IMG/VR virus record: IMGVR_UViG_3300028610_000299
Span: 1 to 39,496 of that record
Length of the DNA stretch: 39,496 nt
Source: a virus
Strand: one strand, 5' to 3'
Part shown: piece by piece, positions 6,538 through 10,932 of the stretch
Numbering within the stretch: position 1 is the first letter of the stretch
Layout: each line of letters begins with the position of its first letter
The notes under the pieces: model-generated
The model's database searches: none
Told to the model about the DNA's origin: nothing
Seen by the model: the letters and a program-made list of their open reading frames with translations, nothing else
Translations under genes and position numbers: made by a program

Positions 6538-8490
6538 ATGGCACTTAACACAGTATCACTACCGTTCGGATATTACCCCGACCCTACTAAGGGCCGGCCT
6601 GTATTCAATGGCTCTATCTTCATTGGCGAGCCTGATCTAGATCCGACAATCCTTGCTAATCAGAAGACGATCACTATCCGACAAGAAGGGGTTGATACAC
6701 CATCCGTTCCGCAGCCAATTTCTACAAGTGCGGGCGGTGTTCCTGTGTTCAACGGGTCGCCTGCAGAGATACTGGTTGGCGGCTCTTATTCGATGGCTGT
6801 GCTTAACGCACAAGACGTTCAGGTTTACTATGTCGCAAATAACTTTGCGGCTGCGTCCGATGAGGTTACGTCTGACTTCGATACTGTTGCTGACATGGTT
6901 GCATCATCACCTTCAGCTGGCGTTTTAGTCAAAACCAAAGGCTACACAACTTCCGGAGATGGCGGCGGTGCGATCTACCTAATACAGACAGCAGCAGAGT
7001 TTGGCGGTACTCCTGACGAGCTCGGAGACCACACACTAGCTAATGGGAACGTAGCTGTATTACAACATTCAGGGACTGTCAATGTAAGGAAATATGGCGC
7101 CCAGCTAGGAGGTAGTGGTGGTAGTGATGATTTGGCATCTTTCGATGCCGCATTAGCTGCTGCAGATATTGTCACATATGATGCATCTTGCTTTGCCTCT
7201 GGGACGATTCAAATACCTAGACAGACAACATTAAAAAGCACAAGTGAAGAAGCTCATCTAATCTTTGGCTCTTTCGTAGGTGCGCCGATTGTTCAGCTTA
7301 TAGGTACTCATAGCAAAGCTGAAACTGTTGGTATTGGTGCTATTGGTGCAAGACTGAATAGTTCGTTCGACAATCTAGCTACAGGGATTTTAGTTGGTGG
7401 GACAGGAGCTGCGTCCATATTAACTTATGCAAGCGTAAACAATTGCGTAGTAAAAGATCAACCAGGGCATGGTATTTATTATGCTACACAAAGCCCAGGT
7501 GGCAAGGTTGCTCAGAATATAGCAACTGAGTGTAGGGGTCATGCTTTCATATTTGATGATGGAACAACTCTAGGCACTGTAACTTCTAGAGTGGGCCTGA
7601 TAAAAATATCTAATAATATTGCTCAAAGTTGTGGAGGCTACGGTCTTGCAACAGCGCCTAATGCGGGTGGTTCGTGTTTCAGATTGAACATTGACAACCA
7701 CGAAGTCACAGACTGTGCATGGAATAATACAGAGATAACTACTTTAGTCCAAGACGCTCTTGTATTTCTAGGTGGGCAAAATATAACTTGGAGGGCAGGG
7801 GCTGTTAATGATGCTTTGTGGGCATCAACAACTTTAAATAATGGACAGACTCGGTTTGCAAAAGCGCAAAAAGGGAATGGCATGGTTATTGGTGGTAGTT
7901 GTGAGTCTATCTCTTTAATTGTACCAAGATGGCTAACTCTAACAGACGCATTAGCTATTAATGTAGGTACTGATGGCCTAACAATTGACCACCATTTCAT
8001 GGGTGCCAGTACTGTAGCAACCGGAATTCATGTTATTTCGGGCACCCATAAAAATACCAATTTAAAGATCAGTAGCGATACCACGACAACACCAGTGCTA
8101 AATTCAACGTCTAATGAATTTGTTGCGACTATTGATGATCGTGAGACTGTGTTTAAGGGCAGCGCGGGAGGCTATTCTATTGGTGATACCTCTGCCGCTA
8201 CTATCGGCGGCGGCGGTTTAAATATAACTTCAACCGTTATAAACATGACCGGCGAGGGTGATGTAGCAGATACTGTTAACTTCCTAAAACCAGGAGGTAA
8301 CGCCTCGGTAATTCGTGACGGAGACATCATTACCTTAGTAAATAGGAATGCATATAACATAACTGTAGCCAGCACAGGAACGGCCCCTGGAGCACTAACA
8401 CCAATCCAAGTTAAATCAGCCAGTGTCGTATTAACAACTGACCAGACTTGGACGGGTAGAGTTATAGACGGGTTTTGCCGGGAGGTTTAA
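6538..8490 (+). CDS. Tailspike with P22-type head-binding domain
   Basis: 650 residues, against 667 for P22 gp9. Residues 1-105 fit the P22 tailspike N-terminal head-binding domain: a short lead, then RPVFNGSIFIGEPDLDP, ANQKTITIRQEG, PISTSAGGVPVFNGSPAEI and SMAVLNAQDVQVYYVANN, matching the order and spacing of that family. Residues 170-540 are Gly/Asn/Val-rich with irregular repeats, as in a right-handed parallel beta-helix that binds and often cleaves surface polysaccharide. The C-terminus (about 560-650) is beta-rich and ends in Cys-Arg-Glu-Val. The receptor is not predictable. Last large gene of the late operon, with AAGGG before ATG. Confidence 0.9.
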   Translation: MALNTVSLPFGYYPDPTKGRPVFNGSIFIGEPDLDPTILANQKTITIRQEGVDTPSVPQPISTSAGGVPVFNGSPAEILVGGSYSMAVLNAQDVQVYYVANNFAAASDEVTSDFDTVADMVASSPSAGVLVKTKGYTTSGDGGGAIYLIQTAAEFGGTPDELGDHTLANGNVAVLQHSGTVNVRKYGAQLGGSGGSDDLASFDAALAAADIVTYDASCFASGTIQIPRQTTLKSTSEEAHLIFGSFVGAPIVQLIGTHSKAETVGIGAIGARLNSSFDNLATGILVGGTGAASILTYASVNNCVVKDQPGHGIYYATQSPGGKVAQNIATECRGHAFIFDDGTTLGTVTSRVGLIKISNNIAQSCGGYGLATAPNAGGSCFRLNIDNHEVTDCAWNNTEITTLVQDALVFLGGQNITWRAGAVNDALWASTTLNNGQTRFAKAQKGNGMVIGGSCESISLIVPRWLTLTDALAINVGTDGLTIDHHFMGASTVATGIHVISGTHKNTNLKISSDTTTTPVLNSTSNEFVATIDDRETVFKGSAGGYSIGDTSAATIGGGGLNITSTVINMTGEGDVADTVNFLKPGGNASVIRDGDIITLVNRNAYNITVASTGTAPGALTPIQVKSASVVLTTDQTWTGRVIDGFCREV

Positions 8491-9378: not shown

Positions 9379-10110
9379 TTAGGCGGCCATAATGGCCCGC
9401 CCGATCAGCTCTGGGATTGGTGGGAAAACCGAGTTGCCTAGCCCTCTAATTCTGTCCACCCGCTTGGGTATTTCATCTGCAACTCTATCCACGCCGGGTT
9501 GAGTTTCCCGTAGCAGCCGCTTGGCGTCGGAGCAGTAGAAAGTCCGACGATCACTGGCAAGTCGGGCGCTATTTTCACACGCCGCTTGAAATAGCCTAGA
9601 TTCTTCGAGTATTGATCCCCGTCGCTCGCCTTGGGGGTAGGCCACAATCCAGACGCGATCTCTCCTGTGATCTCCACCAACGGCGCAAGCTGGTACGCAG
9701 TGCCATTCCGCGTCATACCCGATTTCGGCCAGGTCTCCGAGAACGGTGTCAATCCCTCGATAAAGCAGCGCTGCGACGTTTTCCACGATTGCGAACCGTG
9801 GTCGTACTTCGCTAATAATTCGTGAGTATTGCGACCACAGGCCAGACCGCGCCCCCTGGATGCCCTCTTTTTTCCCGCTGGAGCTAATGTCTTGGCAGGG
9901 AAACCCCCCGCAAATAACGTCAACTGTTCCTCTATATTGGTTTCCATCCAGCTCCCTCACGTCATCATGGACCGGCACATCGGGCCAGTGTTTAGCCAGC
10001 ACCTGGCGGGCGTATGGCTCTCTTTCGCAAAACGCCACGGTTGTCATCCCGGCCCGCTCCAGCCCCAGGCTAAAACCGCCGATCCCGCTGAACAGGTCCA
10101 AGACTTTCAT
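9379..10110 (-). CDS. DNA (cytosine-5) methyltransferase, short form
   Basis: 243 residues. All key C5-methyltransferase motifs are visible: motif I DLFSGIGGFSLGLE (5-18), motif IV GGFPCQDIS with catalytic Cys72, motif VI ENV (110-112), motif VIII HRRDR (148-152), and motif X GNSVFPPIPELIG (225-237). It would methylate the C5 of cytosine using AdoMet, probably to shield phage DNA from host restriction. It is far shorter than typical stand-alone enzymes (over 300 aa). Only about 60 residues lie between motifs VIII and IX, which leaves little target-recognition domain. AAGGG lies eight bases before ATG. A second conserved frame lies wholly inside it (9438-9947). Confidence 0.93.
   Translation of the reverse strand: MKVLDLFSGIGGFSLGLERAGMTTVAFCEREPYARQVLAKHWPDVPVHDDVRELDGNQYRGTVDVICGGFPCQDISSSGKKEGIQGARSGLWSQYSRIISEVRPRFAIVENVAALLYRGIDTVLGDLAEIGYDAEWHCVPACAVGGDHRRDRVWIVAYPQGERRGSILEESRLFQAACENSARLASDRRTFYCSDAKRLLRETQPGVDRVADEIPKRVDRIRGLGNSVFPPIPELIGRAIMAA
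9438..9947 (-). CDS. Overprinted conserved phage protein inside the cytosine methyltransferase gene
   Basis: A 169-residue frame on the same strand as the methyltransferase but in another frame, covering its residues 55-224. It carries signatures I recognise from a phage protein family usually found beside cytosine methyltransferases: an N-terminal EQLTLFAG, SWKTSQRC, SETWPKSGMTRNGTAYQL (about 82-99), GLWPTPKASDGD, and a C-terminal NPAWIELQM with YPSGWTELEG. The ATG has its own Shine-Dalgarno (AGGGAG, five to six bases upstream). Function is unknown. Two frames that both look conserved argue for real overprinting, although translation is unproven. Confidence 0.62.
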   Translation of the reverse strand: METNIEEQLTLFAGGFPAKTLAPAGKKRASRGRGLACGRNTHELLAKYDHGSQSWKTSQRCFIEGLTPFSETWPKSGMTRNGTAYQLAPLVEITGEIASGLWPTPKASDGDQYSKNLGYFKRRVKIAPDLPVIVGLSTAPTPSGCYGKLNPAWIELQMKYPSGWTELEG

Positions 10111-10154: not shown

Positions 10155-10493
10155 TTAAAGCAGCAGATCCCGCAGCTTAATACCCTTGAGCTCGTTACCT
10201 ACCTTCTTGACTACCACCCCCCATCCTCTGTCGCTGCATGGCTGTTTGCCACTGATCGCTTCGACAATGCTGTCAACGCTCATGTCAATGTTAGATATTT
10301 GATAACCGCCACCAGGGCCGCGCACAACAGCAACCAAGCCTGCCTTTTTCAGCTTCGAGAATATCTGTTCGTAATACGACCCCGATAGATGTTGGCGCCG
10401 GGCTAAGTCGGCTAGTTTGACTGGCCTATCTTTGCCATGCTCTGCCAAATCCCTCATTGCGACCACAGCACGTTTACATCTTTTATCCATCAT
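10155..10493 (-). CDS. Rrf2-family transcriptional regulator without Fe-S cysteines
   Basis: 112 residues from ATG 10493, chosen because GGAGG lies nine bases upstream. A longer frame to 10589 lacks such a site and overlaps rusA. The winged-helix pattern is clear: KRAVVAMRDLAEHG, VKLADLARRQHLSGSYYEQIFSKLKKAGLV (recognition helix), RGPGGGYQIS (wing), SVDSIVEAI. Family members such as IscR bind an Fe-S cluster through three Cys after this point, but here only Cys86 remains. It may therefore be a cluster-free DNA-binding protein. Position between RusA and the methyltransferase suggests control of phage or host genes. Confidence 0.85.
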   Translation of the reverse strand: MMDKRCKRAVVAMRDLAEHGKDRPVKLADLARRQHLSGSYYEQIFSKLKKAGLVAVVRGPGGGYQISNIDMSVDSIVEAISGKQPCSDRGWGVVVKKVGNELKGIKLRDLLL

Positions 10494-10548
10494 TTCTGCG
10501 CACCTCCTACAGTTGTTAGGGTTATTAAAGCCTACTTTTGAGAGGGTT

Positions 10549-10932
10549 TCAAGCCTGCAGCCTGTAAACATCTCCAGCATCATCAACACGGCTTACAGAT
10601 ATCCCCCCGTCATCTGCCCAGCGTTTCTCGGCCCATATGCTCCATACAGCGCAGTCCTGTTTGTGGATCGCATCAAGAGCAGCTTTCAGAAGGTTGTCGA
10701 CATCAGGTGTCTGCTGGTGGGGCTGCATGTGCATCCCGGCTCGCTTCTTCTTGCTCCAACTCTTCGGCATAGGGATGAAGAACGTAATCTTCTGCCCGCT
10801 CTGCTCGATCTCCAGACCCTTCGCTCTGCATTCGTCAGCAAACGCCCGGTACCGCATCACGCACGGCCTCTGCTTCCATTTGTCGGCGCGAGTCTGCCTC
10901 GGCTTGGTGCATGGAGTTATGTCGTAGTGCAT
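10549..10932 (-). CDS. rusA: RusA-type Holliday junction resolvase
   Basis: A 127-residue protein, close to the usual 120. The active-site signature PDVDNLLKAALDAI sits at 76-89 (Asp77, Asp79, Lys83), and the further acidic pair Asp107/Asp108 in WADDGGIS completes the metal site. RusA resolves four-way junctions by paired nicks, and in phages it debranches DNA before packaging. The start shares one base with the stop of the Ref-like gene (TGATG), implying coupled expression of two DNA-processing nucleases. Confidence 0.92.
   Translation of the reverse strand: MHYDITPCTKPRQTRADKWKQRPCVMRYRAFADECRAKGLEIEQSGQKITFFIPMPKSWSKKKRAGMHMQPHQQTPDVDNLLKAALDAIHKQDCAVWSIWAEKRWADDGGISVSRVDDAGDVYRLQA

Follow-up and report, generated by a model that had tools for sequence, protein, structure and literature searches.

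A gene nested within a phage cytosine methyltransferase gene may encode the second chain of the enzyme

Introduction

In a viral genome, the gene of a C5-cytosine methyltransferase (MT) chain, hereafter alpha, contains on the same strand, in another reading frame, an open frame of 169 codons whose putative product is called beta. The question raised by this locus is whether the same bases encode two conserved proteins and, if they do, how the second is related to the first. The DNA analyzed, referred to as the window, is a virus record from IMG/VR, taken at its full length of 39,496 bases. Both open reading frames, first pointed out in an earlier note on this DNA, were confirmed, beta being read in the +1 frame relative to alpha and lying entirely within the alpha ORF (Table 1).

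The nested locus and its surroundings

Table 1. Positions in the window of the two nested frames and of the segments discussed in the text.
Feature	Positions	Strand	Evidence
alpha: C5-cytosine methyltransferase (MT) chain, 243 aa, motifs I–VIII and X	9379..10110	-	PF00145 match, AlphaFold model, M.HhaI alignment
beta (OV): nested ORF, 169 aa, motif-IX-like C-terminus	9438..9947	-	phrog_1008, +1 stop depletion, constraint on MT-synonymous sites
GAGGGAG, candidate ribosome-binding site of the nested ORF, upstream of the beta start	9952..9958	-	sequence only
alpha motif IV GGFPCQ, catalytic Cys	9892..9909	-	G68, G69, P71, C72, Q73 invariant in 56 rows of the alpha alignment
beta WPTP signature, opposite the end of alpha motif VIII	9633..9644	-	P103, T104, P105 in at least 90% of 88 beta rows
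beta motif-IX-like segment, residues 149–168	9444..9503	-	E155, M158 invariant in 88 rows; opposite MT-frame fourfold sites 0–0.31 bits
alpha VIII–X spacer, overprinted on beta	9442..9630	-	mean top-residue frequency 0.26 in MT 159–200; low pLDDT
alpha motif X (GLGNSVFPP)	9415..9441	-	G225, N226 invariant in 56 rows of the alpha alignment

The alignments underlying Table 1 comprise 55 of 149 non-redundant alphas (56 rows) and 87 of 188 non-redundant betas (88 rows), the window's own sequence being added to each. The position of the beta start is not conserved among relatives. At 86 loci (e.g. L012, positions 1320–1324), the alpha start and a candidate beta start are found 4 nt apart, so that one ribosome site could open both frames; beta then covers nearly the entire alpha gene.

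Immediately upstream of the MT gene lies a gene for an Rrf2-family regulator (PF02082, 1.3e-18; 10155–10589, minus strand), an odd neighbour for a phage modification gene. Also upstream and on the same strand are genes for a RusA resolvase (10549–10932) and a RecA-dependent nuclease (PF16786; 10932–11240). A tail-spike-like gene on the plus strand (6538–8490) contains a head-binding domain (PF09008, 9.4e-15) and a weak beta-helix match. A scan of nine neighbouring ORFs showed no restriction enzyme.

The nested frame is kept open

Eighty viral loci were retrieved using only the MT protein as query; their choice was thus independent of the nested frame. All 80 contain a beta match (tblastn) at offset +1. 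Stop codons were counted in a core extending from motif IV (GGFPC) to motif X (GN) and compared with the expectation from synonymous-codon shuffles; 25 of the 296 loci collected in all were left unparsed in this count. Frequent stops in the nested frame of related MT genes, named in the earlier note as a result that would speak against two proteins, were looked for among the 80 loci and the opposite was seen: 72 have no stop in the core, with a mean of 0.10 observed vs. 4.40 expected. The +2 frame of the same loci has 8.59 stops observed vs. 8.67 expected. After removal of near copies, 54 of 58 loci are stop-free in the +1 frame (0.07 observed vs. 3.97 expected). In five of the eight loci with a stop, it lies 4–9 codons ahead of motif X, a place at which beta ends in any case; the remaining three (L223, L231, L234) have it 16 codons after GGFPC. 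Loci fetched with the beta protein have an open +1 frame in 45/51, 60/65 and 69/74 of those parsed, as is expected given how they were chosen. Taken by itself, the window's frame is no more than suggestive, since an open +1 run of at least 172 codons occurs in 3.4% of 5000 synonymous shuffles (p = 0.034), and it is the comparative evidence that decides.

Selection acts on both frames

Fourfold-degenerate sites were analyzed in an alignment of 79 rows including the window (2 of 81 rows were left out). At conserved fourfold alpha codons, the mean third-position entropy falls from 1.84 bits ahead of the overlap (15 columns) to 1.10 bits within it (28 columns) and rises again to 1.75 bits beyond it (7 columns), the difference between inside and outside being significant (p = 6.8e-7). 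Opposite the C-terminal motif of beta, alpha-frame sites fall to 0–0.31 bits. The fourfold sites of the beta frame are mostly frozen over alpha motifs IV–VIII, a few being free, and are freer (0.65–1.66 bits) over the spacer and the C-terminal motif. T is rare at these latter sites, where it would often create a stop in the outer frame. A different group, of 54 distinct genes, has a nested-frame ATG 4 nt downstream of the outer start; here the N-terminal part shows constraint as well (1.11 bits, 19 columns), as expected if beta starts at this ATG. Both frames are under protein-level selection. The central claim of the earlier note, namely that two conserved proteins are read from the same bases, is borne out in this respect, both the depletion of stops and the constraint on MT-synonymous sites revealing selection on the second.

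Motif IX is missing from the outer frame

Alpha matches PF00145 (2.1e-44) over profile positions 1–167 of 324 only. Its AlphaFold model (pLDDT 84.6) is confident at residues 1–160 and about 231–243 and poor at about 161–230; aligned to M.HhaI, the best Z is 25.3 over 211 residues. Alpha can be assigned to the PF00145 family by the presence of motifs I–VIII and X, including the catalytic PCQ, and by its M.HhaI fold. The early impression that this 243-residue chain carries every catalytic motif in one frame has to be corrected, since motif IX is absent from the alpha frame. That alpha has neither motif IX nor a recognition domain in its own chain is apparent from the end of the Pfam match at position 167 and from the low confidence of the segment between motifs VIII and X.

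Of 58 PF00145 loci from bacterial genomes, 37 could be parsed. The 20 loci with an in-frame motif IX have 9.9 stops in the +1 frame, vs. 10.2 expected, and none is stop-free. Fifteen of the 17 loci lacking a match to the motif IX pattern are stop-free in +1. The two exceptions are L314, in which motif IX does occur in frame (MTPREYANLMGA) and was missed by the pattern, and L348, with a single stop at the end of a nested frame that reads LTPEDGEELMGYPQEWTKID. Viral single-chain genes, of which 4 were parsed among 16 loci, have 4.0 stops vs. 4.7 expected. An open +1 frame goes with the absence of motif IX in alpha. At one locus (L033, 2082–2165), a motif-IX segment is found in the alpha frame and motif X is out of frame, a pattern that a small indel or an error in sequencing could produce.

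These single-chain genes also bear on the reading that the nested frame is not translated and is conserved only through the conservation of alpha. Whatever frame is read over a conserved gene, relatives will look similar in it, and the probability obtained for the window alone would leave room for such an effect; stop depletion against synonymous shuffles with the +2 frame at expectation, constraint of alpha-synonymous sites inside the overlap only, and the 20 bacterial and 4 viral single-chain genes at expectation make it very improbable, short of some nucleotide-level constraint that imitates codon structure. Chance or shadow conservation was accordingly rejected as a candidate on the basis of the shuffles, the +2 frame and the single-chain controls.

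The nested product and its C-terminal motif

Beta of the window matches phrog_1008, annotated as 'DNA methyltransferase', with 5.7e-23 (residues 7–116 on profile positions 36–149 of 329), and has no match in Pfam or NCBIfam; the beta alignment has none among PDB sequences or Pfam. Modelled by itself in AlphaFold, beta gives a poor structure (pLDDT 61.1, pTM 0.29), and no fold was found by structure comparison with this model. The C-terminal consensus LNPxWVEWLMGFPxGWTDL is located in the DNA between alpha motifs VIII and X, and motif IX of single-chain enzymes, e.g. LTPRECARLMGFPD and LTPLECERLQGLPDNWTDI, lies likewise between VIII and X. A profile of the single-chain motif IX scores above 0 bits in 94 of 189 betas, always at the LMGF site, the single scores being low; above 0 among the controls were 23 alpha-frame, 7 shuffled and 2 reversed sequences. 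The motif in the window is degenerate (QMKYPSGW vs. LMGFPxGW) and has no positive motif IX score at that site. In a profile–profile comparison (hhalign), motif IX falls on motif IX over 5 columns only, with an E of 0.016 for one comparison. The most plausible reading of the second product is that it is the part of the enzyme which alpha lacks, comprising motif IX and probably target recognition.

Among 188 non-redundant betas, between 0 and 7 xPTP units occur per protein, and their number rises with length (mean of 190 aa with one unit, 341 aa with seven). These units are possibly recognition modules.

Overlapping genes, split relatives and descent

The second family had been described as lying beside cytosine methyltransferases, which would make it an adjoining, separate protein. 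Such a picture does not agree with the 296 loci, in 293 of which the beta match overlaps the MT match at +1, the other three being within the same MT ORF. No free-standing beta was found among 215 distinct viral and genome loci from the beta searches, for which the best 80 of 246 matches in the genome scan and the best 80 of 449 in the second viral scan were taken, and a free-standing family was discarded as a candidate on this ground. Two archaeal metagenome bins (L067, L116) also have a beta match at +1. By DNA similarity, a partial match was found in 2 of 5426 E. coli genomes. The one that was opened (L327, 3824–4585, strain PCP07014) is a prophage copy beside an integrase, marked as a pseudogene with an internal stop, in which both frames are interrupted. 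One viral contig (L042, 1146–1856 and 2566–3210) carries two nested MT pairs in tandem.

Split relatives are found in four actinophages, Mycobacterium phage Backyardigan, Streptomyces phage Samy, Gordonia phage Camerico and Arthrobacter phage Andrew (L328–L331). In these phages the catalytic chain ends a short way past motif VIII, and motifs IX and X are both on the +1 chain, a layout in which the first chain has no space for a recognition region. The records annotate two genes. All four +1 chains have matches in two families, namely phrog_1008 (7.5e-95 to 1.7e-29) and, in its C-terminal part, the single-chain family phrog_116 (2.4e-13 to 6.4e-5). The single-chain protein L307 matches phrog_116 over residues 1–441 of 443; the nested protein is thereby linked to the IX–X part of single-chain enzymes.

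Were the nested product an independent protein that arose by overprinting, e.g. a regulator or an anti-restriction factor, it would not serve the enzyme at all. In favour of such a protein is the N-terminal half of beta (SWKTSQ, FSETWPKSGM, WPTP), for which neither solved structures nor Pfam offer a known counterpart and which remains recognizable in the split relatives. We consider it improbable in view of the lack of a free-standing copy among the 215 beta-search loci, of the open frame tracking the absence of motif IX in alpha, and of the match of the split-phage betas to the C-terminal part of phrog_116. Another reading, in which programmed frameshifting joins alpha and the +1 frame into a fusion in place of two chains, draws on the order in the DNA of the beta end and alpha motif X, which is that of a single-chain enzyme, and on the run GGGGGGTTTCCC located at motif IV. 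Two shifts would be needed for the fusion to regain motif X, beta has in the window a start codon of its own preceded by a plausible ribosome site, its N-terminal half is conserved although upstream of any shift into the spacer, and the actinophage records have two genes; frameshifting is therefore hardly to be expected.

In a tree of 58 catalytic domains, a single branch with support 99/95 sets the 35 nested and 2 split forms apart from the 21 single-chain ones. This branch was found in 200 of 200 bootstrap trees; most nested rows had been picked for their resemblance to the window, a choice that favours clustering, and two of the four split phages were left out as they gave no pattern match. 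L305 and L348, which come from Pfam searches, also fall inside the nested and split clade. The nested forms in the tree stem from Pseudomonadota, Actinomycetota, Bacillota, Verrucomicrobiota, Calditrichota and others.

Concerning the proposal that the second family arose by overprinting, this can account for parts of each frame only, given that the second product is read as a missing part of the same enzyme. The parts that were probably overprinted are the N-terminal half of beta, over MT motifs IV–VIII, and the VIII–X segment of the MT, over beta.

Proposed enzyme

On the basis of the sequence comparisons above, the locus most probably encodes, as one nested gene pair, a phage-borne heterodimeric C5-cytosine DNA methyltransferase of the M.EcoHK31I kind. 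The outer frame would yield alpha, with the S-adenosylmethionine-binding and catalytic domain (motifs I–VIII) and motif X. From an internal start on the same mRNA, the +1 frame would be translated into beta, which is predicted to bind alpha and to complete the small domain by supplying motif IX; the target-recognition region would probably also lie in beta. Each chain by itself would be unable to methylate DNA, and the two together would rebuild an ordinary two-domain enzyme. It would act as an orphan modification enzyme, and its methylation of a short site in the DNA of the phage or the host would most likely serve to escape restriction.

A broader scenario, to which we give an even chance, is that a large clade of C5-methyltransferases in phages, bacteria and archaea descends from one split of the reading frame. 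The N-terminal half of beta would then have been overprinted on the alpha catalytic domain and the alpha spacer on the beta recognition region, the variable WPTP units being target-recognition modules, with specificity residing in the hidden frame.

With these results, what appeared as a single curiosity (M.EcoHK31I) becomes a widespread gene architecture, a long same-strand overlap under selection in phages and prokaryotes. In most annotated records of the searched collections, a single feature is named under the match; for many methyltransferases, one half has therefore probably gone unannotated, and no Pfam or NCBIfam model finds beta. If the heterodimer reading is true, alpha cloned alone would yield an inactive enzyme. 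The family also offers a natural, replicated system for studying the co-evolution of two frames in one sequence. A naturally split enzyme of this kind has already been used for targeted methylation (PMC3439449).

Comparison with known systems

The closest known system is M.EcoHK31I (YGGCCR), a two-polypeptide C5-methyltransferase, with which the likeness is drawn from its description and not from its sequence. Lee, Kam and Shaw (1995) reportedly described an alpha chain of 309 aa and a beta chain of 176 aa, both needed for activity, and the beta ORF is said to be nested in alpha in another frame. The window pair is so arranged, the small-chain ORF lying inside the large-chain gene. It differs from M.EcoHK31I in being phage-borne, in that no restriction enzyme was seen beside it, and in having an alpha that is shorter than the reported 309 aa. 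According to PMC3404938, motifs I–VIII and X of M.EcoHK31I are in its large subunit and IX in the small one; the window alpha has the same content. The same source assigns the predicted recognition domain to the large subunit, which conflicts with placing recognition in beta, and the split relatives point to the second chain.

M.AquI (CYCGRG) is split, as outlined in that source (PMC3404938), into a chain with motifs I–VIII and a later chain with motif IX. Its small chain also carries motif X, whereas in the window X is in alpha; the actinophage relatives resemble M.AquI in having motif X in the second chain. The label of phrog_1008, of which the window beta is a member, is silent on a nested partner without catalytic motifs. 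The ShiLan domain (PMC11855218) is an out-of-frame protein inside a phage methylase gene. There, an HNH endonuclease is inserted as extra DNA, whereas the overlap in the window is the methylase's own coding sequence and would supply a part of the enzyme. No description of a family-wide nested arrangement was found in the open-licence PMC literature. The kind of enzyme is already known from M.EcoHK31I, and what may be new here is the scale of the arrangement, its single origin and its link to the AquI-like split forms.
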